From the NCBI GenBank assembly GCA_009379815.1, contig WHSY01000012.1:1-64000 (forward strand): DNA of 64,000 nt, given 5' to 3'. Every line of letters begins with the position of its first letter. Within the stretch, counting starts at the first letter, position 1. This document shows positions 54,177 through 64,000 of this stretch, piece by piece. Both the position numbers and the translations under genes were made by a program. The notes under the pieces are model-generated. The model searched no databases. It was not told where the DNA came from and saw only the letters and a program-made list of their open reading frames with translations. The stretch is from Pseudonocardiaceae bacterium (lineage in GTDB: Bacteria > Actinomycetota > Actinomycetes > Mycobacteriales > Pseudonocardiaceae).

Positions 54177-54289
54177 GCCCTTGCCAGAGACGCGGGCCGG
54201 CCACCCGCTACGACGGGCTCGCCTTGACCTTCCGCGGCGGAGTTGTCCTCAAGGCGATTGTCACTTGGCTGAGTATTGGGAGACAGGCC

Positions 54290-54347
54290 CCAGCGGGGCT
54301 GACGCCCCCGCCCGACGAGGCGTGTTCGGGGGCTTCAGCCCCGCTGG
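54290..54347. repeat. Long GC-rich inverted repeat upstream of the AlkD-like gene
   Basis: A 21-nt arm (54290-54310) pairs with 54327-54347 with one mismatch, leaving a 16-nt loop. It is stronger than needed for a terminator and lacks a T-run. It lies 40 bp before the GTG start of the repair gene. Could be a terminator for the upstream transcript, a REP-like element or an mRNA leader structure. Confidence 0.8.
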
Positions 54348-54387
54348 TTATAGGCTGAATCTCACACGTAATGGACAGGAGGCTGAG

Positions 54388-55074
54388 GTGGCCGAGACGA
54401 CGCTGGCCGAGGCGACGGTGGCCGAGGTGATGGCCGAGCTGGCCGCGCTCGAGGACCCGAAGACCCGTGAGGTGAACGAGAAGCACGGTGACGATCACGG
54501 CGTGAACCTCAGCAAGCTGCGCGCGCTCGCGAAGCGGCTGAAGACGCAGCAGGAACTCGCGCGCCAGCTCTGGGAGACGGATGACACGGCGGCGAGATTG
54601 CTGGCGATCCTGATCTGCCGCCCGAAGGCGTTCGAGCGTGACGAGTTGGACGTCATGCTGCGCGAGACGCGCACCCCCAAGGTGCACGACTGGCTCGTGA
54701 GCTACGTGGTGAAGAAGAACCCGCACTCCGAAGAACTGCGCCTGGCCTGGTTCACGGATCCGGATCCAGCGGTCGCGAGTGCCGGCTGGGCGCTGACCAC
54801 CGAGCGGGTGGCGAAGAAACCCGAGGGCCTCGACCTCGCGGGACTGCTCGACGTCATCGAGGCGGAGATGAAGGACACCCCGGATCGCCTGCAGTGGGCG
54901 ATGAACCACTGCCTGGCCCAGATCGGGATTGAGCACGCCGAGCACCGCGCCCGCGCCATCGACATTGGCGAGCACCTGGAGGTGCTCAAGGACTACCCGA
55001 CGCCCCCGAACTGCACGTCTCCGTTCGCGCCCACCTGGATCACCGAGATGGTGCGCCGCCAGCACGATAAGTAA
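54388..55074 (+). CDS. DNA alkylation repair protein (AlkD/HEAT-like)
   Basis: 228 residues from the GTG at 54388, 5 bp after AGGAGG. Helical repeat pattern with WETDDTAARLLAILICRP, FTDPDPAVASAGWALTTERVAK, DRLQWAMNHCLAQIGI and CTSPFAPTWITEMV. The HEAT-repeat glycosylases of this family remove N3/N7-alkyl purines without base flipping. Catalytic residues cannot be mapped with certainty by eye. Monocistronic and next to tRNA-Ala. Confidence 0.8.
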   Translation: MAETTLAEATVAEVMAELAALEDPKTREVNEKHGDDHGVNLSKLRALAKRLKTQQELARQLWETDDTAARLLAILICRPKAFERDELDVMLRETRTPKVHDWLVSYVVKKNPHSEELRLAWFTDPDPAVASAGWALTTERVAKKPEGLDLAGLLDVIEAEMKDTPDRLQWAMNHCLAQIGIEHAEHRARAIDIGEHLEVLKDYPTPPNCTSPFAPTWITEMVRRQHDK

Positions 55075-55221
55075 GAGGTTCCGCCCACATGATCAACAGG
55101 GTCCCGCCAGCGCTCTCACCAGCCAAGATCACCTAGGTGCGGCTGCCGTACTAGGCAGTAACTTGGTGGTATACCCGGCCCGGGCTGCTGTGGGCGACAG
55201 CGTTACTGCTGGTCACAGTGG

Positions 55222-55294
55222 TGGAGACGAGGGGAATCGAACCCCTAACCCCCGCCTTGCAAAGGCGGTGCTCTGCCAATTGAGCTACGTCCCC
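55222..55294 (-). tRNA. tRNA-Ala (anticodon TGC)
   Basis: 73 nt on the minus strand. The acceptor GGGGACG pairs with CGTCTCC (one G-U pair), the D-arm region is TAGCTCAATTGGCAGAGCA, the anticodon arm CCGCC-TTTGCAA-GGCGG carries TGC, and the T-arm has GGTTCGATTCC. The 3' CCA is encoded (55219-55221). In many actinobacteria this gene follows tRNA-Ile(GAT) near gyrA. Confidence 0.97.
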
Positions 55295-55324: not shown

Positions 55325-55444
55325 TCACGCCGTCGGCGCGGTCGCCTCACGCCAGAGGTCGGCCTCGGCCTTCACGGAGCGCTGCCGGCGCAGTACGGCC
55401 ACTGCGGCGAGACCGACCAGCACGAGTGGGATGATCTTCTTCAT
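55325..55444 (-). CDS. DLW-39 family protein
   Basis: 39 residues, matching the name and length of the DLW-39 family. MKKIIPLVLVGLAAVAVLRR forms one membrane segment, followed by a short basic part and the diagnostic ADLWREAT motif. The ATG follows CTGGAGG. The gene is normally found beside tRNA-Ile/tRNA-Ala near gyrA in actinobacteria; function unknown. Confidence 0.9.
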   Translation of the reverse strand: MKKIIPLVLVGLAAVAVLRRQRSVKAEADLWREATAPTA

Positions 55445-55474
55445 GGGGTTCGCCTCCAGGCGGGGTGTGGGGTG

Positions 55475-55523
55475 TGGGCCTGGCTCGACTCGAACCGGCG
55501 ACCGTTTCGTCAGCAGCGTCGTT
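55475..55523 (-). repeat. Degenerate tRNA-Ile 3'-half copy (att-like repeat, copy 1)
   Basis: 49 bp with 41 of 49 bases identical to the copy at 55759-55807. It can be read as a decayed tRNA 3' half: T-loop GGTTCGAGT, end CCAGGCCCA, but the T-stem no longer pairs. It marks a likely older integration scar. Confidence 0.6.
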
Positions 55524-55565
55524 CCTGGTGTAGAACTGCCACGCCATAGGCGTTGAACATAGCAT

Positions 55566-55735
55566 GTGACGTGCGGCGACCCAGCGATGGTGTCGGTGGA
55601 GCCGGCTCGACGCGCACGACTGGTTGTGGTGGGCTTCGCGGCCGGGGTGGCTTCACCGGGCTGCTGCTGGGCTCGGTCAGCCGCGCCCTGGTCCATCATT
55701 CGCCGTGCCCGGTCGCCGTCGTGCATGGATCGTGA
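55566..55735 (+). pseudogene. C-terminal remnant of a universal stress protein (UspA family)
   Basis: ARLVVVG is followed, after a frameshift of one base, by [19 protein letters not shown] and [13 protein letters not shown] up to the TGA at 55733-55735, the ATP-binding C-terminus of UspA proteins. The N-terminal two thirds are missing. It lies exactly between the two tRNA-like repeats. Confidence 0.7.
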
Positions 55736-55758
55736 GCGATCCGGCCTGCCACCGCTGG

Positions 55759-55807
55759 TGGGCCTAGCTGGACTTGAACCAGCGACCTCTTCGTTATCAG
55801 CGTCGTT
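55759..55807 (-). repeat. tRNA-Ile(GAT) 3' half: attachment-site duplicate (copy 2)
   Basis: Read from the minus strand, the segment holds the anticodon loop CTGATAA, CGAAG, a paired T-arm (GCTGG-TTCAAGT-CCAGC) and the acceptor end TAGGCCCA of tRNA-Ile. The 5' side (CGACG) cannot pair with CGAAG, and the D-arm is absent, so this is a 3'-half copy, the typical attL left by integration of an AICE or phage into a tRNA gene. Confidence 0.75.
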
Positions 55808-56481
55808 ATGTCCGGATGAGCAGGGCCTACAGGTTGTGGCTACCCAGTCTACCCACGCGGTATGGGGCGAGCTTCACCGGTGTCTGGCGTCTGCTATTGG
55901 CCGGAACGTTCCCGCAATGTTCCCTCGCCGGTTGCCGCTGCAACGCTGGTAAGGCCGGAGGGCATCCCGTCGCGTCGGCGGGCTCGTCCCGGAGCAGACC
56001 AGGGGCCGGTGGCCAGGTGGAGCACCCGACTGTCTGACCGACCTGGACGCCGGCCCCTGGTCTGCTACGCCTTCGGCGCCGATGCGTCGGGGTGCCCGCC
56101 CCTGGTGACATGCTCTGCCCTGCTGCTCCTTCGGGCCATCCCGGAGCGGAGGCCGGGTCCAGGGCAGCGCCCTGGCCGCCGGAGGCCTCGTCCGCATGTC
56201 CCGCGGCCCCCAGCGATCACTTTCGTCCCTGCCTGGCCTTGCCCCTCTCGCGTAGCCGCCCGGTCGCCCGGAGGCCGAAGGCCGGAAGGGCGGCCGGTTG
56301 CGGCCGCGTCCGGGCCGTCAGGCCCGGCTTGAAGACGTACTGAAAGTCCTCACCGGAAGATGAAAGGGTATATGTCCGGTCCCGGTAGATGCTTGACGTT
56401 GCTGTCCCAGCTGATGCTTGACTTCGGGCCTGATCGGCTCTTCCTTCGCTGTCCTGGGTGGACGGTGAGCGGAGGCCGGGA
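55808..56481. other. Gene-poor left arm of the element with one large hairpin
   Basis: No convincing coding frame. A perfect 16-bp inverted repeat (55994-56009 with 56050-56065), extended after a 3-nt interior loop by a further 6-bp stem (56013-56018 with 56041-56046), is the main structure. The rest is very GC-rich without recognised motifs, and the overlapping frames on both strands look like noise. Confidence 0.6.
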
Positions 56482-56559
56482 ATGGCTCTGGTGGACATGT
56501 CGGTTGTCGAGCAGCGGTACCGCGCCGTCCTGGCTGTGATCGTGGTGGCCGCGCAGTGA
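56482..56559 (+). pseudogene. IS481-family transposase, N-terminal remnant
   Basis: An ATG at 56482 begins MALVDMSVVEQRYRAVLAV, the N-terminal helix of IS481-type transposases, which normally goes on into an HTH (VTEVA..FGVSRQ). Here the frame ends at a TGA after 25 codons, exactly where the oppositely oriented IS1380 remnant begins. The insertion or deletion that joined them is at about 56553. Confidence 0.6.
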
Positions 56560-57000
56560 ACCTGCGCGCCAGCCCGGCCGCGGTCGTCGAGCCCAACCCG
56601 GCCACCGGCGCGAGCACCTGCCCAGCCGCATCGGCGCGCTGGCGGTCCAGCCCCACCAAGAAGTCCTCTCCGGCCAGCTGCACCGCCGCCATCCGGACCA
56701 GCAACTGCCCGCCACTCAACCCACGGTCACGGGACTTGATCGGCCCGACCGCAGCATCCAACACCTTGATCATGTTCAACCGGTCGACCAGCTCGGTCAC
56801 CGCCGCCATTCCCGACACCGGGGTCAACGTCGCATCCGGCGCGCCGATGCACACCCACCGCCGCAACCGACGAATCTCGCGTACCCTGCCCACCAGATGG
56901 GTGTCCTTCCAACCTCGAGATCGTGGCCTCGTAACCGCCATCATCGCAGGTCAACAGGACACCCATCGTCATCTCAAAGCTACTCGCGGATCCGGGTTCA
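56555..57000 (-). pseudogene. IS1380-family transposase, 5' fragment with left terminus (copy A)
   Basis: On the minus strand, TPVSGMAAVTELVDRLNMIK, AVGPIKSRDRGLSGGQLLV, QLAGEDFLVGLDRQRADAAG and TTAAGLARRFT match the first 90 or so residues of IS1380 transposases. The frame then breaks. The leader (56877-57000), ending at CTACTCGCGGATCC, is shared with copy B at 57987-58123. The DDE catalytic part is lost. Confidence 0.75.
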
Positions 57001-57062
57001 GCGACCGCGGAAGCTACTCGCCGGCTATTTTGCACTTCGGGTCAGCTTCGGGAGTTCCGGGC

Positions 57063-57746
57063 CTACTTCGGTTGCTGGCTCGGCAGCTTCGGGGTCTTAC
57101 CGAATTTACCGAAGATCTCGAAACCGGGCATCGACAAGCCCTGCTGTCCGTAAAGCAGCGACGCGAGCGCCACGCTGCACCACGGTGCGAACGCACCCAC
57201 CAGACGTAAGGGCGCGGTGTCGTTGAAGTACAGCTCGAACTGCCACGCCTCCGGCGCCGGCCGCAGCTCGACCACACCGCCGAGCCAGAAGATCACCCAG
57301 CCGTGGTGGTCGCACAGCAGACGTCGGTCCGTCATGATTGTGCGCACGATGCCGAGGTGCTGCCAGCGCGGCGTGGCCTGCTCGTTCGCCCACTGCGCCC
57401 ACATCTTGTTGTTCGCACGGATCCGCCGGTTCTGCAGCGCCCGGATGATCGTGGTGGGTCCCAGCCCGAGCATGCCGATCCCGTACTTGCGCCGTGCCTG
57501 CACCGGCGCGGTCGCGTTCCTGCCGATGCGGCGCTCGAACCCTAGCTCGGTTTCGATCAGCACCTGCTCGCCCTCCTCGAGGCGAACTGTGGTGGGTCCC
57601 GCCGACGGGATCGCGCCGCCCTCGGCGAGCACGGAGTAGAGAGCGTGGGCACGTTCCCAGCCTGTGTCGAAGATAACCCTTCGGTCAGCCACCAGCTCAC
57701 TCTGGCGAGGGCGGAACACGGTGTCAACAAACAAGCCCGTGCACAT
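57063..57746 (-). CDS. Hypothetical protein between the two IS1380 remnants
   Basis: 227 residues from the ATG at 57746; a GTG at 57716 is an alternative start. No signal peptide or clear membrane segment. Notable features are VRLEEGEQVLIETELGFERRI, TTIIRALQNRRIRANNKMWAQWANEQA, and a Trp/Phe-rich middle (WVIFWLGGVVELRPAPEAWQFELYF). The frame continues openly upstream but runs into IS sequence. No family recognised; it may be element cargo. Confidence 0.5.
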   Translation of the reverse strand: MCTGLFVDTVFRPRQSELVADRRVIFDTGWERAHALYSVLAEGGAIPSAGPTTVRLEEGEQVLIETELGFERRIGRNATAPVQARRKYGIGMLGLGPTTIIRALQNRRIRANNKMWAQWANEQATPRWQHLGIVRTIMTDRRLLCDHHGWVIFWLGGVVELRPAPEAWQFELYFNDTAPLRLVGAFAPWCSVALASLLYGQQGLSMPGFEIFGKFGKTPKLPSQQPK

Positions 57747-57799
57747 CCTGGCTACCTTCGTCGAGTTCGAAGTCGACCTCGTGCACATGCGCACCCGCG

Positions 57800-58123
57800 G
57801 AGGCGCCACAGCGGTGCTATGCGTTTGGCGCCGATGGCGAACTCCACATCGGCGAAGTGCGCGGCTCGGGCAAGTTGCCCGGCGAAGTAGCCAGCGTCGG
57901 CGCGTAGCCGGATCCGCCCGGCACGTGCCGCCGACGGGAGGGCGGACAGCGCCCGCCACCCGCCGCACCTCGCCGGCCAGCCCGATCTCACGTACTCTGC
58001 CCACCCGATAGGTGTCCTTCCAACCTCGCTGATCGTGCCTTCGCAAACACCATCATCGCAGGTCAAAGGGCACCGATGGTCATTTCCACGCCCGCGCAGG
58101 ACCACCTACTCGCGGATTCGAGT
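57800..58123 (-). pseudogene. IS1380-family transposase remnant (copy B), leader joined to an internal fragment
   Basis: The leader 57987-58123 matches copy A (GWKDT..VGRVREI) and ends in CTACTCGCGGATTCG. The transposase then resumes, in another frame, at RIRLRADAGYFAGQLARAAH and FAIGAKRIAPLWRL (57800-57940), the middle of the family. The part between is deleted, and the end is missing. Confidence 0.7.
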
Positions 58124-59160
58124 CAGTCCTGTTCGTTGATGTAGGCCATCATGATCGTCATGACGTCGTCAGCCGCGTGGTCCATCCGGTAGACGCTGTC
58201 GAGCTGGAGTAACTCGCCCTTGCGCACGGTGCCGAGGTTCTGACCCGTGCAGAGCCTCATCGATTCGATGTGGCCCATGTAGGCCGGGTCGGTGCCGTAG
58301 CCGGCCTCCGAGGTGCACATGTGCTGCCCGATGCTGGCGTTCGACAGCGCGAGCGACTGGCCACCGTCGTGCAGGTGCCCACCGGCCGCCTTCACCGTGC
58401 CCGAGAGCGTGGACTGCCAGCGCCAGGTCGTCGTCGAGGTGCCAGCGGGCACGCTGTGCTGGGAGTCCCCAGTGCAGTTCGCCGCGTCCAGCCAGACCGG
58501 GGTAACCTCCTCCATCCCGGGGGTGCTTGCCGGGACGTGTCTGATAGTGGCCTCAAGGAACACGGTCTGCGGCTCAGGCTTCATGTTCATCAGCTCGACG
58601 ACGGCCCAGGTCATTGGCGCCTGGCCCAGCTTAACGCCGTATCCGTCTGGCAGTTTCCCACCGGTCCGCTCGTTGCCGGATGCGAAGAGCCGCCTGCCGG
58701 TGAGCTCGTAGAAGGTACGACTGTCGCCGCAGGTGACGTCCTCTTTGGAACGATCGAACAGCACCGAGTGGTGCAGCATGACGCCGGTGTCGTAGTTCGC
58801 CGAGGAACCGTGCGAATAGGTCAAATCCGGCTTGATGCTGGTGACGTAGCAGTTTGCGCACGGCGGCATCACCGGCCCGGCGACTGTGGTGTGGGTCCCG
58901 TTGCTGTGCTCTCCGCTCCCATGATCGGAATGCGGCTGCGCGATGATCGGTCCCATCTGAACGGTGCTCTCGGTCGCCCCGTTCGGCAGCTGCCGCTGCT
59001 CGACGATCCTGGCCGCCGGTGCGGGCTCGGGCAGTGCCGACTCGGTGTCGGGTACCACCCCGGTGGACTCCGCGTTCGCGGTCGCACCCGGTGTGACCAG
59101 CACCGCCGCGCCTACGATCAGCGCGCCCGCTGCCACCATCAGTCGCGAGACTCGCCTCAT
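58123..59160 (-). CDS. Secreted SURNod19-like / PHM-like putative copper protein
   Basis: 345 residues with a signal peptide (about residues 1-30, MRRVSRLMVAAGALIV...ATANAES). A His-rich linker lies at 77-90. Candidate copper ligands are a His pair, MLHHSVLF (130-131), an HxH in AGGHLHDGG (262-264) and late methionines (DDVMTIMMAY). LFASGNERT, LPDGYG and VTPVWLDAANC recall the plant/fungal stress-upregulated Nod19 (SURNod19) family, which shares the fold of peptidylglycine monooxygenase. Enzyme activity is inference. It is cargo of the integrative element, on the minus strand. Confidence 0.65.
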   Translation of the reverse strand: MRRVSRLMVAAGALIVGAAVLVTPGATANAESTGVVPDTESALPEPAPAARIVEQRQLPNGATESTVQMGPIIAQPHSDHGSGEHSNGTHTTVAGPVMPPCANCYVTSIKPDLTYSHGSSANYDTGVMLHHSVLFDRSKEDVTCGDSRTFYELTGRRLFASGNERTGGKLPDGYGVKLGQAPMTWAVVELMNMKPEPQTVFLEATIRHVPASTPGMEEVTPVWLDAANCTGDSQHSVPAGTSTTTWRWQSTLSGTVKAAGGHLHDGGQSLALSNASIGQHMCTSEAGYGTDPAYMGHIESMRLCTGQNLGTVRKGELLQLDSVYRMDHAADDVMTIMMAYINEQD

Positions 59161-59376
59161 TGGACGACTCCCTTCGTCCCAGTCAATCTACCCAGAACAA
59201 CGCAACCACCGCCACAGAGTGACGGCGCCCGTGCGCGGGAGAGCGCTGCACGCGACATCCCGAGACGTCACGTCGCCAACGCTACAGCGATGCGCTCAGC
59301 CACGCCTCGTGTATGACCGACTCATGGACCAGCAGGGGGAGGTCAGCGAAGCAGACTGAGTTGTAATTGCTGGCGC

Positions 59377-60636
59377 TCATGCTGACTGTCGTGTGGCCGT
59401 GATCAGTGCATGATGAAAGTCCATTGCGCTTGATGTGTTTGGGAACCGATCCTGTAATGCTCGATCTAGTTCGGAGCCGACCATTAACAGTGAAGGCTGC
59501 GAGCGGCGTCCAATTGTCAAAGCTTGTTTCCCGTAGGACATTGCCTTATCAAGTTCACCTTGGCGAGCAGCTATTACTCCAAGGGTGATCTCGGCTTCGG
59601 CTTTGCGCATCGGAGAGAGGTCGGTGCCATCGTGTGCGGTCGTCTTGCGGATGATTTCACGGGCATGCATCTCGGCCAGGTCGTCGTCACCGATGAGCCG
59701 GTAGCAGTCCATGGCGTAGAAGTCGAACTTGTCCGGGTCAACGACGAAGTGGTTGTCGGGTCGCTCCGGATAGGGCAGTGAGTCGAGGAGTGTCCGCCCT
59801 TTCTCCAGGGCCTTGACGACGTTGCGCTGGTTACCGGTGCGCGCCCAGGCTTTCGCTTCCTGCGCGAGAAGTTGGACGGATACGGACCGGCCGGGCGCTG
59901 CGTCTTGCCCAGCTTGTGCGGCGTGAATGACTTCAGGGTAGCGGCCACCGGTGATGGCGAACCAGGAGCGCAGTTCGTGTGCCCAGCCGACCAAGGACGG
60001 GTTGCGGGCGTCCTCGCCGAGCCGAAGGGCGCCTGTACGGGTCGCCTCGGCCTGCCGGCCCTGGCCGGTGTCGTGCTCGAGACAGCCGACAAGGAGGGTG
60101 AGCCAGCCGGCAGCGTCGAGTACGTCGTGGTGCTGGCTCAGTGTGAGACGCTCGTCGAGGAGTTGCGTGATTTGCGACAGCCACCGGCGGCTCTCTCCGA
60201 TTAGCTCTGCTGCGTCACGCGAGGCGTACTCGCAGCACAACTGCTCAACAGTCAAGGCCAGGGCGTCGAGCGTGGTGTTGTCGACGGAGGGCCGGCGGAT
60301 GCGTTGAACGAGCTCGTGGGTGTCCATGCCGCTCCGGCTCAGCAGCAGCTCGTCATGGGTACCGGCACGTCGTGGTGGCCGTGGGCCAGGGAAGAGCGAT
60401 TCGACCACAGTGCCCAAGGTCGCCGCGATCAGCGGCCGATAAAACTCGTCTGGCTTGGTCCGGCCGCGTTCCCACCGTTTCCACTGATCGAGAAGACCGT
60501 CCGGTAGCGGAACATCAGAGAACGTCCTGAGAGCCGCGACAGCATCGCCCTGAGACCATCCGCGTACTGCGCGCTCACGCCGTAACCGTTTCGCCCATTC
60601 GGGACGGTCCGTGTCGTCCTCATCCACAGCCCCCAT
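59377..60636 (-). CDS. XRE-family regulator with TPR-like C-terminal domain
   Basis: 419 residues. The N-terminal HTH (EWAKRLRRERAVRGWSQGDAVAALRT, then LLDQWKRWERGRTKP) is typical of large actinobacterial XRE regulators. The rest is helical with TPR-like repeats (e.g. LGVIAARQGELDKAMSYGKQAL) and probably senses a peptide or protein. It is divergent from the element's plus-strand module across 139 bp that hold repeated half-sites, so it likely controls transfer genes. Confidence 0.8.
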   Translation of the reverse strand: MGAVDEDDTDRPEWAKRLRRERAVRGWSQGDAVAALRTFSDVPLPDGLLDQWKRWERGRTKPDEFYRPLIAATLGTVVESLFPGPRPPRRAGTHDELLLSRSGMDTHELVQRIRRPSVDNTTLDALALTVEQLCCEYASRDAAELIGESRRWLSQITQLLDERLTLSQHHDVLDAAGWLTLLVGCLEHDTGQGRQAEATRTGALRLGEDARNPSLVGWAHELRSWFAITGGRYPEVIHAAQAGQDAAPGRSVSVQLLAQEAKAWARTGNQRNVVKALEKGRTLLDSLPYPERPDNHFVVDPDKFDFYAMDCYRLIGDDDLAEMHAREIIRKTTAHDGTDLSPMRKAEAEITLGVIAARQGELDKAMSYGKQALTIGRRSQPSLLMVGSELDRALQDRFPNTSSAMDFHHALITATRQSA

Positions 60637-60651
60637 CGTACCGGAAGGGCT

Positions 60652-60755
60652 GGGGGCAAGCCTGCCCCCAATAGTTGCCCCCTTCTGTGCCTCCTGTGCT
60701 CCGGATCACAGCCGCTCATAGTGGTGGTGCACCCGCCGGGGTGCGGATCACCACT
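60652..60755. promoter_or_regulatory. Divergent control region of the element: repeated half-sites and leader hairpin
   Basis: The octamer TTGCCCCC or its near copy occurs three times: inverted at 60652-60659, CTGCCCCC at 60662-60669 and TTGCCCCC at 60675-60682. A nested hairpin follows, an outer AGTGGTG/CACCACT stem (60720-60726 with 60749-60755) and an inner GCACC/GGTGC stem. It ends 20 bp before the ATG at 60776. Probable operator for the XRE regulator. Confidence 0.5.
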
Positions 60756-60775
60756 CCGAGAACAGGAGACATGTC

Positions 60776-61138
60776 ATGAAGAAGTTGCTGCTGGACACGT
60801 CGATCGTGACGCTGACCGTCGGTCGTGGGTGGATGCCCAAGACGATGCCGGATGGCGAGCAGAAGACGGAGAGGGGCACGGGGCGGCCGTTGCACACCGT
60901 CCAACTCATCGCTGACAGCGGGGATGAGACCGAAGACGCTGCGATGTTCCTTGTCACCGTGCCGATCGAGAATCCGCCAAAGTTGACCAAGGGCACCGTG
61001 GTTGAGGTCGAGGGCCTCGAAGCGATTCCGTGGGTGAACCGGGCTGGTTCTGCGCAGGTCGCATTCCGCGCTACCTCTGTCAAGACCGTCTCGTCTGCGA
61101 AGCCGTCGAGTGCGTCGTCTACATCGTCTGGAGCGTGA
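60776..61138 (+). CDS. Conserved small protein of the AICE module
   Basis: 120 residues behind CAGGAGAC. A beta-rich pattern, FLVTVPIENPPKLTKGTVVEVEGL, then AQVAFRATSV and a Ser-rich tail, suggests an OB-like or single-strand-binding fold. Similar short genes occur upstream of the translocase in pSAM2-like elements. First gene of the plus-strand module. Confidence 0.6.
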   Translation: MKKLLLDTSIVTLTVGRGWMPKTMPDGEQKTERGTGRPLHTVQLIADSGDETEDAAMFLVTVPIENPPKLTKGTVVEVEGLEAIPWVNRAGSAQVAFRATSVKTVSSAKPSSASSTSSGA

Positions 61139-61185
61139 TCGACGGATACGCCAGACAAGCACGAGCAGGAAGGAACCAACACGTC

Positions 61186-61530
61186 ATGACTGCTACAGCT
61201 GGTCGCAGCGGGTCGCTGATATCGACTCCGACTGTGCCGACCGCGCAGGAACCGAGCACGGGCCGTGGGGACCTCGGCAAGGTCCACGAAGCCATCGCGC
61301 ACTCGCTGGCCCGAGTGGTGACCGAGTCCGGTCACTACGGCGTGATGCACGTCCACGACTGGATCGAGGCGGTCAATTTCGCCAAGGAACTGCCGGGACC
61401 ACGCAGCGAACTGCGATATGCCCAGGAGTGCCTGGAAATCTCGCTGCAGTACCTGCATATGCTGCGCAACGAGGTCGACCACCAGGCCGACGTGGTGGCA
61501 CCGAAGACCGATCCGGAACCTCCGTGGTGA
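61186..61530 (+). CDS. Conserved hypothetical protein of the AICE module
   Basis: 114 residues from the ATG at 61186 behind GCAGGAAGGA. A disordered Ser/Thr/Pro N-terminus precedes a helical part (DLGKVHEAIAHSLARVVTESG and LRYAQECLEISLQYLHMLRNEVDHQ). Its function is unknown; the position, 47 bp after the previous gene, supports a shared transcript. Confidence 0.6.
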   Translation: MTATAGRSGSLISTPTVPTAQEPSTGRGDLGKVHEAIAHSLARVVTESGHYGVMHVHDWIEAVNFAKELPGPRSELRYAQECLEISLQYLHMLRNEVDHQADVVAPKTDPEPPW

Positions 61531-61662
61531 GCCATCACCACCTGACGTGAACGGCGGTCACGGGACCGGGCAGGAATCTTGCCGGATCTCACTCCCGGCC
61601 CGTGGCCACCTTCACCAACCAACCCCGCCATCACCTGATTGAAAGGAACTTGGGGGTTCGTC

Positions 61663-62472
61663 GTGTCCAAGAAGTCTACCAAGACCACCGCACGCCGGTC
61701 GGCACAGACCGGCACCTTCGAGATCATCCACCGCGCCGAACAGTCCTTGCCGCTGCGCATCCTCGCCGGCCTGGTCCGGCTGCGCGCCGAACTGGCCCTG
61801 TTCACCACCGTTGTCGTGGCCTGGGCGCTGCTCGATGCCTACGTGACTCCGGGCCTGGGCGCTTGGGTGGTCCTCGGCGGCCTGGTGCTCGCCGTCGCCG
61901 CGATCCCGCACACCCGCCGGTATGCCATGCGCCGGTTCTGGTCGATCTACACCCGCCACCGCGTGCGGGCCTGCCTGGTCAATTCCCGGGTGACGACCCA
62001 CGAGGGTCAGGTACCCCGCCTGCTATGGGCCCGACCGATCCCGGTCGGCGTCCGGGTGTGGGTGCTGCTGCGAGCCGGGCTGGCCGGCCGCCACATCGAA
62101 CACGTCACCGACGAAATCGCCGCAGCCTGTCTGGCCCGCGAAGCCAGAGTGCACATCCACGACCGCTGGACCGCATTCGTCCGCATCGACGTGGTCCGCC
62201 ACGACCCACTGTCCGGCAAGGCCGACGTCGCCTCGGACCTGCTGACCGGCCGCGACACCGCCACCGATTCCGGAGCGGACGTGATCCCACTGCCGGACCG
62301 CACCACTGTCACCCCCGAACCCAACACCACGGGAACGGGCGGTGCACCCACCACTGATGCTCCCGCCACCCGGCGGGCCAAGACCAGGACCACCACCCCC
62401 ACCACTACCGCCGAATCTGACGGGTCAGTGGCCATGGGCCGGTCCGGAGAGGACGTATCCGACTATGTCTGA
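61663..62472 (+). CDS. Membrane protein adjacent to the FtsK-type translocase
   Basis: 269 residues from the GTG at 61663; a TTG at 61639 is the longer alternative. Two hydrophobic segments (ALFTTVVVAWALLDAYV and AWVVLGGLVLAVAAI) lie in the first third. The rest is a cytoplasmic basic region and a Thr/Pro-rich linker. Membrane partners of this kind (Spd-like) accompany TraB translocases. Its stop lies 8 bp inside the next gene. Confidence 0.65.
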   Translation: MSKKSTKTTARRSAQTGTFEIIHRAEQSLPLRILAGLVRLRAELALFTTVVVAWALLDAYVTPGLGAWVVLGGLVLAVAAIPHTRRYAMRRFWSIYTRHRVRACLVNSRVTTHEGQVPRLLWARPIPVGVRVWVLLRAGLAGRHIEHVTDEIAAACLAREARVHIHDRWTAFVRIDVVRHDPLSGKADVASDLLTGRDTATDSGADVIPLPDRTTVTPEPNTTGTGGAPTTDAPATRRAKTRTTTPTTTAESDGSVAMGRSGEDVSDYV

Positions 62473-63403
62473 CCCCGCACGCGGGGACCGGGGCCGCCGC
62501 CGGCGGCCCCACCTTCCCCGATTCAACCCGCTCCACAAACTGCGAGCCACCCCGGAAAGCGCCGACGTGTCGGTGCCGGTCGGTGCACTGTCGATCTACG
62601 ACCCGATCCACCTGGGCGTCGACGAAGACGGTCTGCCAGTAGCCGTGACCCTGATATATCGCAACCTGCTCGCCGGGGGAGAACCCGGCTCGGGCAAGTC
62701 CTCGGCGCTGAACATCATCGTCGGCCACGGCGCCCTGTCACCGGACTGCCGGCTGTGGCTCTTCGACGGCAAACGCGTCGAACTCGGCCCGTGGCGCGAA
62801 GTCGCTGACGTGTTCGTCGGCTCCAACCCCGACCACGCCATTGCCAAGCTGCGTGAGCTGCAAACCGAGATGGACATCCGCTACGCCATGATCGAGGCGG
62901 CCAAGCGTCGCAAGATCGCCCGCCACGACGGGCTCGACGTCATCCTGTGCGTCATCGACGAACTGGCCTACTTCACCGTCACCACCGGAACCAAAGACCA
63001 GCAAGAAGAAGTCAGAAACCTCGTCCGCGACCTCGTCGCGAGGGGCCGAGCCGCCGGAATCATCGTCGTCGCCGCAACACAGCGACCCAGTGCCGACATC
63101 ATCCCCACCAGCCTGCGGGACCTGTTCGGCTATCGCATGGCATTCCGATGCACCACCGACTCATCCAGCGACATCATCCTGTCGCAGGGCTGGGCCGGAC
63201 AGGGCTACTCCGCCAAAACCATTCGCCCGGAAGCGATCGGGCAAGCCTGGGTGCTCGCCGAAGGCGGATTTCCCCGCCGCATGCGATGCGCCTACCTCTC
63301 CGATGTCCACATTCAGACCCTGATCAGCCACGCCATCCGGCTGCGCGCACCGGGGCGTTTCGGTGACGACGGCGGCGCCGCCAGCGCGCTCGCCAAACTC
63401 TGA
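62465..63403 (+). CDS. FtsK/SpoIIIE-type DNA translocase (TraB-like), AICE transfer protein
   Basis: 312 residues from the ATG at 62465. Walker A GEPGSGKSS lies at residues 72-80 and Walker B DVILCVIDELAYF at about 158-170. Then AATQRPSADIIPTSLRDLFGYRMAF and SQGWAGQGYSAKT show the RecA-like FtsK core. It lacks the membrane segments found in true FtsK; the preceding gene may supply them. In AICEs this hexameric motor moves double-stranded DNA between hyphae or cells. Confidence 0.88.
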   Translation: MSDPARGDRGRRRRPHLPRFNPLHKLRATPESADVSVPVGALSIYDPIHLGVDEDGLPVAVTLIYRNLLAGGEPGSGKSSALNIIVGHGALSPDCRLWLFDGKRVELGPWREVADVFVGSNPDHAIAKLRELQTEMDIRYAMIEAAKRRKIARHDGLDVILCVIDELAYFTVTTGTKDQQEEVRNLVRDLVARGRAAGIIVVAATQRPSADIIPTSLRDLFGYRMAFRCTTDSSSDIILSQGWAGQGYSAKTIRPEAIGQAWVLAEGGFPRRMRCAYLSDVHIQTLISHAIRLRAPGRFGDDGGAASALAKL

Positions 63404-63456
63404 CCCCCAGCCCTTTTCGCTCGATCCGCACATTCCGACCGCAGGAGGAGTCTGCC

Positions 63457-63696
63457 ATGAACACCACCGACTTACCACGCCGCATCCCGGAATTCGGCGC
63501 CGGCCACGGTGCCCGTACGGAACGGCGAACCGCCACCACCGTCATTGTGGTGATCTCTTCCGTGGCACTGGCCTACGGCGCATCACCCGCCGTGGCACAC
63601 ATCGTCAACACGGCCGCCATTGCCGCCGCGATCCTCGCGGCACTGGCACTGACGGTCGCCGGAATCGTCCTCACGACCACCGGCGGCACTCGATGA
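63457..63696 (+). CDS. Small membrane protein of the AICE module
   Basis: 79 residues from an ATG behind CAGGAGGAG. A basic N-terminus and two hydrophobic segments (TVIVVISSVALAYGASP and IAAAILAALALTVAGIVL). It overlaps the next gene (ATGA at 63693). Such short proteins (SpdA/SpdB-like) are linked to plasmid spread in actinobacteria; this assignment is by position. Confidence 0.6.
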   Translation: MNTTDLPRRIPEFGAGHGARTERRTATTVIVVISSVALAYGASPAVAHIVNTAAIAAAILAALALTVAGIVLTTTGGTR

Positions 63697-64000
63697 GGGG
63701 ACCGCGCCGCGACTGCGGCATCTACACCGACCGGTGGGGCTGGCAACCCCACGCCTGGCGCCAGAACGGACTGACCACCTACCCGTGGCGCACCGCCCCC
63801 ACCGGGCTGATCACCCGGCGGCAGATGCGCACCGCCGGCCTGGCGCCTAACCGGGCCGAACCCGTCGCCCAGATCATCACCCGCCGCAACGGGCGACGCG
63901 GCTACCTCTACGACCCCACCGAACTCGCACCCAAACGCACCGCCAGCCCGGCGCAACTCGCCGCCCTGGACAAAGCACTCGCAGCGCGCCGCTGGTGCCC
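63693..64000 (+). CDS. RRQRL-motif zinc-binding protein (3' end outside window)
   Basis: The ATG at 63693 overlaps the previous stop. 102 codons are visible and open to the right edge. GLITRRQMRTAGL is the RRQRL-type motif and Cys/Trp-rich ends (RRDCGIYTDRWGW; LAARRWCP) could contribute zinc ligands. Proteins of this kind are standard AICE passengers next to the TraB gene. Function unknown. Confidence 0.7.
   Translation, partial: MRGPRRDCGIYTDRWGWQPHAWRQNGLTTYPWRTAPTGLITRRQMRTAGLAPNRAEPVAQIITRRNGRRGYLYDPTELAPKRTASPAQLAALDKALAARRWC

Follow-up and report, generated by a model that had tools for sequence, protein, structure and literature searches.

Why should one side of a tRNA gene hold two displaced copies of its own 3' half with little more than a gene fragment between them? 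The window, that is, the whole 64,000-nucleotide stretch that was analysed, comprises bases 1-64000 of C33, a 78,106-bp contig of a draft genome (733 contigs) that carries the entire locus on this one contig. A sequence-only reading had explained the two copies by serial integration at tRNA-Ile, which is supported by the intact tRNA gene at the far border, the element genes in between, and the empty site of a relative. Our conclusion is that one and the same tRNA-Ile(GAT) gene was very probably invaded at its 3' end by two successive integrative elements, the first being reduced to 231 bp by now and the second being a 12.6-kb actinomycete integrative and conjugative element (AICE).

The 49-bp sequence that had been reported to occur twice was confirmed, as 55475-55523 and 55759-55807 are identical at 41 of 49 positions, a register shift of 1 to 4 bases leaves 6 to 17 matches, and a repeat search recovered this pair with a length of 50 nt and 84% identity. 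With tRNA-Ile as the query, the 78-kb contig gave three copies, namely the intact gene, an inner copy (100%, 48 bp, E 1.9e-20), and an outer copy (82%, 45 bp, E 5.8e-8), and the next match had an E value of 2.3. The two displaced copies are as follows.

55474..55523, minus strand: outer (older) copy of the tRNA-Ile 3' half, 37/45 bases kept (55474-55518), no encoded CCA
55755..55802, minus strand: inner copy, attL of the present AICE, an exact 48-bp tRNA-Ile 3' half with CCA

The inner copy spans the anticodon stem and loop, the T-arm, and the acceptor end plus CCA. The outer copy corresponds to it as far as the acceptor end, and 8 of its 45 bases are changed. Thus, the earlier assignment of the second copy to the anticodon loop, T-arm, and acceptor end of tRNA-Ile(GAT) holds, while the exact attachment repeat had to be moved from 55759-55807 to 55755-55802. 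Both displaced copies also share five bases upstream of the tRNA match (55519-55523 in the outer copy, AACGA), which are absent from the tRNA itself, and this would fit a local tandem duplication of a single displaced 3' half in the left end of one element. However, the flanks diverge past AACGA, the downstream DNA is host DNA for the outer copy and unrelated DNA for the inner one, and AACGA could just as well belong to a core site common to related integrases, so that we regard such a duplication as very improbable. The presence of AACGA in both copies may weakly hint at related integrases.

It had been expected that an intact tRNA-Ile(GAT) gene with the same 3' sequence would lie past the right end of the element, and such a gene was found at C33:68360-68436 on the minus strand, 4.4 kb past the window end. 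Exactly 48 bp are common to both borders; the partner of attL (attR, C33:68359-68406, outside the window) is identical to 55755-55802 over this length. Outward of the intact tRNA-Ile come a DUF3566 gene, gyrA, and an ORF that can be read as a putative gyrB. Two displaced 3' halves therefore stand on one side of one intact tRNA, which is the arrangement by which accretion is recognised. The tRNA-Ile(GAT) gene at this locus appears to be the only one of the draft genome, and it would remain intact after excision between the 48-bp repeats, as ARAGORN finds tRNA-Ile and tRNA-Ala in the modelled excision product. The neighbouring gyrA (C33:69380-73147, or L006:9381-13148, outside the window) contains an intein with a LAGLIDADG domain, whose intein splicing match is just under the Pfam cut-off.

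The two repeats stand 12,604 bp apart, and what lies between them is, as far as its gene content tells, an AICE of the RepSA kind. Its features inside the window are as follows.

55803..64000, no strand: part of the AICE inside the window, defined by the 48-bp repeats as bounds and by gene content, continuing to the repeat at C33:68359
57063..58046, minus strand: cargo ORF, 327 aa, 0 families each in Pfam, NCBIfam, and PADLOC
58123..59160, minus strand: cargo ORF with weak SURNod19 similarity (PF07712, E 7.2e-6, 25.5 bits, cut-off 25), no NCBIfam match
59377..60636, minus strand: NsdA-family TPR-like regulator, cargo (NCBIfam NF053720, 112.4 bits, cut-off 75)
62342..63403, plus strand: FtsK/SpoIIIE (TraB-type) DNA translocase, predicted transfer protein (PF01580, E 3.1e-14, 53.4 bits, cut-off 24)

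The genes follow the order tra-rep-xis-int and run up to the tRNA. By the Pfam cut-off, the translocase is the single FtsK/SpoIIIE-type transfer protein expected of an AICE, and its match to the NCBIfam plasmid_TraB model (E 8.7e-9, 34.4 bits) is far under the cut-off of 800. The replication initiator, which in AICEs is RepSA, RepAM, or Prim-Pol, is a RepSA here (Pfam E 1.5e-157; 364.9 bits against the NCBIfam equivalog, under its cut-off of 700), and an HTH_17/excisionase-type protein is also encoded. The tyrosine integrase (C33:67026-68297, PF00589, E 1.8e-18) lies beside the attachment site, with 61 bp from its stop codon to the 48-bp repeat. It has R194, H343xxR346, H369, and Y379, which we take to be its catalytic residues; in an alignment of 22 integrases including the present one, R194, H343, R346, and H369 are invariant and Y379 is found in at least 90%. 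Direct repeats of the tRNA 3' end on both flanks, with the intact tRNA at one side, complete the picture, and we infer that the present AICE would be able to excise and transfer. PADLOC found no defence genes in the cargo (6 proteins). Within the cargo, 56874-56954 and 57985-58066 form two adjoining direct repeats (44 nt at 91% and 36 nt at 86%) that are 1111-1112 bp apart and possibly arose by insertion or duplication. At the left end of the AICE there is a 29-nt inverted repeat (55990-56018 and 56041-56069, 90% complementary, 22 nt between the arms) in a part to which no gene is assigned.

What the outer copy represents can be judged from the DNA that it is joined to, which contains the following genes.

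55219..55294, minus strand: tRNA-Ala(TGC), the native downstream neighbour of tRNA-Ile (ARAGORN)
55325..55444, minus strand: DLW-39 family small protein, the native gene between tRNA-Ile and tRNA-Ala (NCBIfam NF038356, 37.8 bits, cut-off 24), collinear in G001

G001 is the only other genome of the same genus that was met in our searches, and its site is uninterrupted: tRNA-Ile, 185 bp with the DLW-39 gene, and tRNA-Ala. A single alignment to G001 takes in the outer copy, DLW-39, and tRNA-Ala, with 252/304 positions identical. Because the outer copy is collinear in one piece with this empty site, it is the native tRNA-Ile end and no mere look-alike, and the outermost copy is thereby joined to native host DNA, as is required for accretion. 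The same tRNA order was found in 37/40 relative stretches, the other 3 being short stretches in which no tRNA-Ala was found. On the far side, an ORF with a DNA alkylation repair (PF08713) domain (54181-55074) adjoins tRNA-Ala. A relic of another tRNA gene, or a chance match, has some points in its favour, since the anticodon position of the outer copy reads GCT in register rather than GAT, and tRNA genes resemble each other here, tRNA-Val(CAC) of this genome being 80% identical to tRNA-Ile over query bases 8-77. Against this, the position and downstream DNA of the outer copy correspond to those of tRNA-Ile in G001, and the 37/45 matching bases include the acceptor strand save one base. The outer copy scored 46.4 bits. 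When the contig, with its tRNA-Ile copies taken out, was shuffled 200 times in triplet blocks, the best score was 28.3 bits, and 0/200 shuffles reached the observed score. On the collinearity and the shuffles we rejected both of these readings, which are barely credible. The older scar of the sequence-only reading has thus gained an identity: judged by its sequence, it is the host's original tRNA-Ile 3' end, which was displaced by an earlier insertion and has since drifted.

Between the two displaced halves, only a C-terminal fragment of a universal stress protein gene had been noted, and our analysis agrees with this.

55524..55754, no strand: remnant of the earlier insertion, 231 bp, between the two displaced 3' halves and missing from the G001 empty site
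55631..55735, plus strand: truncated C-terminal tail of a universal stress protein (Usp; PF00582, E 7.7e-10, profile 110-141 of 141)

The Usp tail is the sole recognised feature within the 231 bp, and the similarity to Usp further upstream seems, from a reading of the translations, to sit in another frame. The remnant gave no match in G001 at E 1e-8. Among 100 relatives (the genome of the window included), 41 matched it at E 1e-8 or better, the best match apart from the window itself being 81% over 95 bases, and the DNA matches to the Usp tail in relatives are 71-90%. No match to the Usp tail was found at E 0.01 in the tRNA-Ile to tRNA-Ala stretches of 40 relatives, nor in the named integrase loci (best 80 of 466) except for the window. 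No surviving gene in the 231 bp marks the first element as an AICE. The remnant has both flanking copies, the outer one with the 8 changes mentioned above, and it would be a cis-mobilisable element (CIME) if the partner integrase could use these sites; the first element presumably shrank to this size by deletion.

We infer the following order of the two insertions. The first element would have pushed the host 3' half outward to what is now 55474-55518, still joined to DLW-39 and tRNA-Ala, and would have supplied a replacement 3' half that served as the tRNA end until the second arrival. The second element, the RepSA-type AICE with its own tyrosine integrase, may then have recombined at the replacement half, which would have been pushed outward in turn to become attL, while the intact gene of today would owe its 3' half, on the attR side, to the AICE. 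The first element would have been reduced to its 231 bp since. The intermediate state, with the first element alone, was not seen in a genus sample of one other genome.

The two elements might instead have arrived as one composite, in which the AICE and the remnant came together from a donor that held both and only a single integration took place here. Tandem AICEs of Frankia are described as leaving the chromosome both individually and as one joint circle (PMC3218068), and the remnant is flanked on both sides by attachment-like copies. Nevertheless, the outer copy has changed at 8/45 positions while the tRNA-Ile is identical to that of G001 over 75 bases, so that the outer displacement probably took place long ago; after a recent single arrival, few changes would be expected in the outer copy, unless a later exchange of the AICE took place. 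We therefore consider a composite arrival improbable and favour two successive insertions. The Jukes-Cantor distance of the outer copy (one lineage) is 0.20, and the adjoining, partly coding gap gives 0.23 for the two species compared. As these values are close to each other, the first displacement is old and may date back to the split from G001, although 8 changes leave a large error.

The CCA ends are in line with two successive insertions. No CCA is encoded by the outer copy or by the tRNA-Ile of 35/40 relatives, whereas the inner copy and the intact tRNA-Ile of the window's genome encode it, a contrast that would be expected if the inner and intact ends came with elements. The pattern is not general, as none of the three ends in Amycolatopsis sp. 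2-2 has a CCA. An essential tRNA gene would now depend on element DNA, since its native end is without CCA and the element-supplied ends are with CCA, and this may give a maturation advantage that favours retention of the element, a proposal that we hold to be unlikely as a whole.

The comparison with relatives speaks against a strong claim that tRNA-Ile is a hotspot. We fetched 40 out of 59 relatives with a tRNA-Ile match. In 37 of these 40, the stretch obtained includes both tRNAs, which are separated by less than 1 kb in 28 and by about 3 to 16 kb in 9. Only two of the nine wide-gap relatives (G027 and G009) contain a displaced 3' half, indicating that a wide gap at this site alone is no sign of an element; no displaced half was found in the other seven, whose larger gaps may have another cause. 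In G029, the contig breaks off after tRNA-Ile, a RepSA-like match (57%), and weak integrase-like matches. When the 3' end of tRNA-Ile was searched as a 30-base pattern (3 mismatches allowed), 63/297 family genomes matched, occupied sites going unseen in the 234/297 genomes without a match. Two matches per genome occurred in just two cases, the window's genome and G033; the second match of G033 is probably another tRNA, being part of a full-length tRNA-like match. For a further displaced tRNA-Ala half in the contig, the best match beyond the gene itself had an E value of 0.59.

The integrase itself was matched at E 1e-60 or better in 29/297 family genomes, the window's included. A contig scan with the single integrase query gave no confirmed relative, and a scan with the integrase alignment gave 466 loci encoding a relative, the best 80 of which were kept; some of these belong to genomes that are also in the 297-genome set and two come from one contig, so that the counts are not independent. 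A tRNA was found within 700 bp of the integrase at 48 of these best 80 of 466 loci and at none of the other 32. These 48 tRNAs (best 80 of 466) are Val(CAC) 15, Pro(CGG) 12, Val(GAC) 7, Ala(TGC) 6, Asp 4, Ala(CGC) 2, Ile 1, and Glu 1. Loci L143-L222 thus show related integrases beside eight kinds of tRNA gene (best 80 of 466), so that target tRNAs seem to be switched easily within this family of integrases. Unlike most of these named relatives, which are mostly at tRNA-Val (22) or tRNA-Pro (12) among the best 80 of 466, the present element targets tRNA-Ile(GAT). A displaced partial tRNA copy (E 1e-4 or better) lies within the locus in 17/48 (best 80 of 466), a count that excludes matches within other predicted tRNAs and also L146, whose match covers almost a full tRNA and lies at the end of a contig.

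Some of these loci resemble the present one. In Actinomycetospora straminea (G223; Pseudonocardiaceae), a single tRNA-Val(CAC) is followed by two such integrases in tandem, and displaced 3' halves lie 12.9 and 25.7 kb away; RepSA and TraB relatives were found only in the outer element, and the inner one is recognised by nothing more than its integrase and excisionase. In G233, the displaced half is directly adjoined on its outer side by an integrase fragment. Amycolatopsis sp. 2-2, the sole tRNA-Ile case among the best 80 of 466, has two displaced copies 2.5 kb apart; its integrase is 57% and its RepSA 37% identical to those of the present element, and no TraB relative was found within the locus stretch examined.

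Integration at tRNA-Ile is reported for pMEA300 of Amycolatopsis methanolica, an AICE of a related genus. Its replication protein is given as RepAM, whereas the present AICE has RepSA. In its tyrosine integrase, excisionase, RepSA initiator, FtsK-like transfer protein, and insertion into a tRNA 3' end, the present element is like the pSAM2/RepSA-type AICEs. A limited literature search found no paper on a Pseudonocardia AICE at a tRNA gene. A survey of actinobacteria describes tandem AICEs, different tRNA targets for related integrases, and a typical layout att-tra-rep-int-att, with which the present tra-rep-xis-int order agrees (PMC3218068). As with Fean5518 and Fean5534, which are reported there to sit in tandem in one tRNA-Lys gene of Frankia, two elements share one tRNA gene here; that pair excises singly and together, whereas our older element is a remnant (PMC3218068). 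A study of a Streptomyces population describes AICE accretion at tRNA-Arg, a trace of an older element, and AICE decay between repeats (PMC9513070). The present locus is like that site in its serial elements at one tRNA, the direct repeats between them, and the trace of an older element. The trace described there is an element devoid of traB, whereas ours is 231 bp with one gene tail, and, unlike in the case as that account presents it, the outermost repeat here is demonstrably the host's original tRNA end (PMC9513070).

Since AICE accretion and decay have already been published, the present locus is a new example and not a new kind, and no general idea is changed by it. Its value is that of a compact record of serial insertion on one contig, in which the host tRNA end is followed in order by the last vestige of an older insertion and by a newer element that seems complete, and for which the empty site of a sister species is available for comparison. 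The displaced host end also gives a rough age for the first insertion, and together with Amycolatopsis sp. 2-2 there are now two cases of repeated insertion at tRNA-Ile(GAT).
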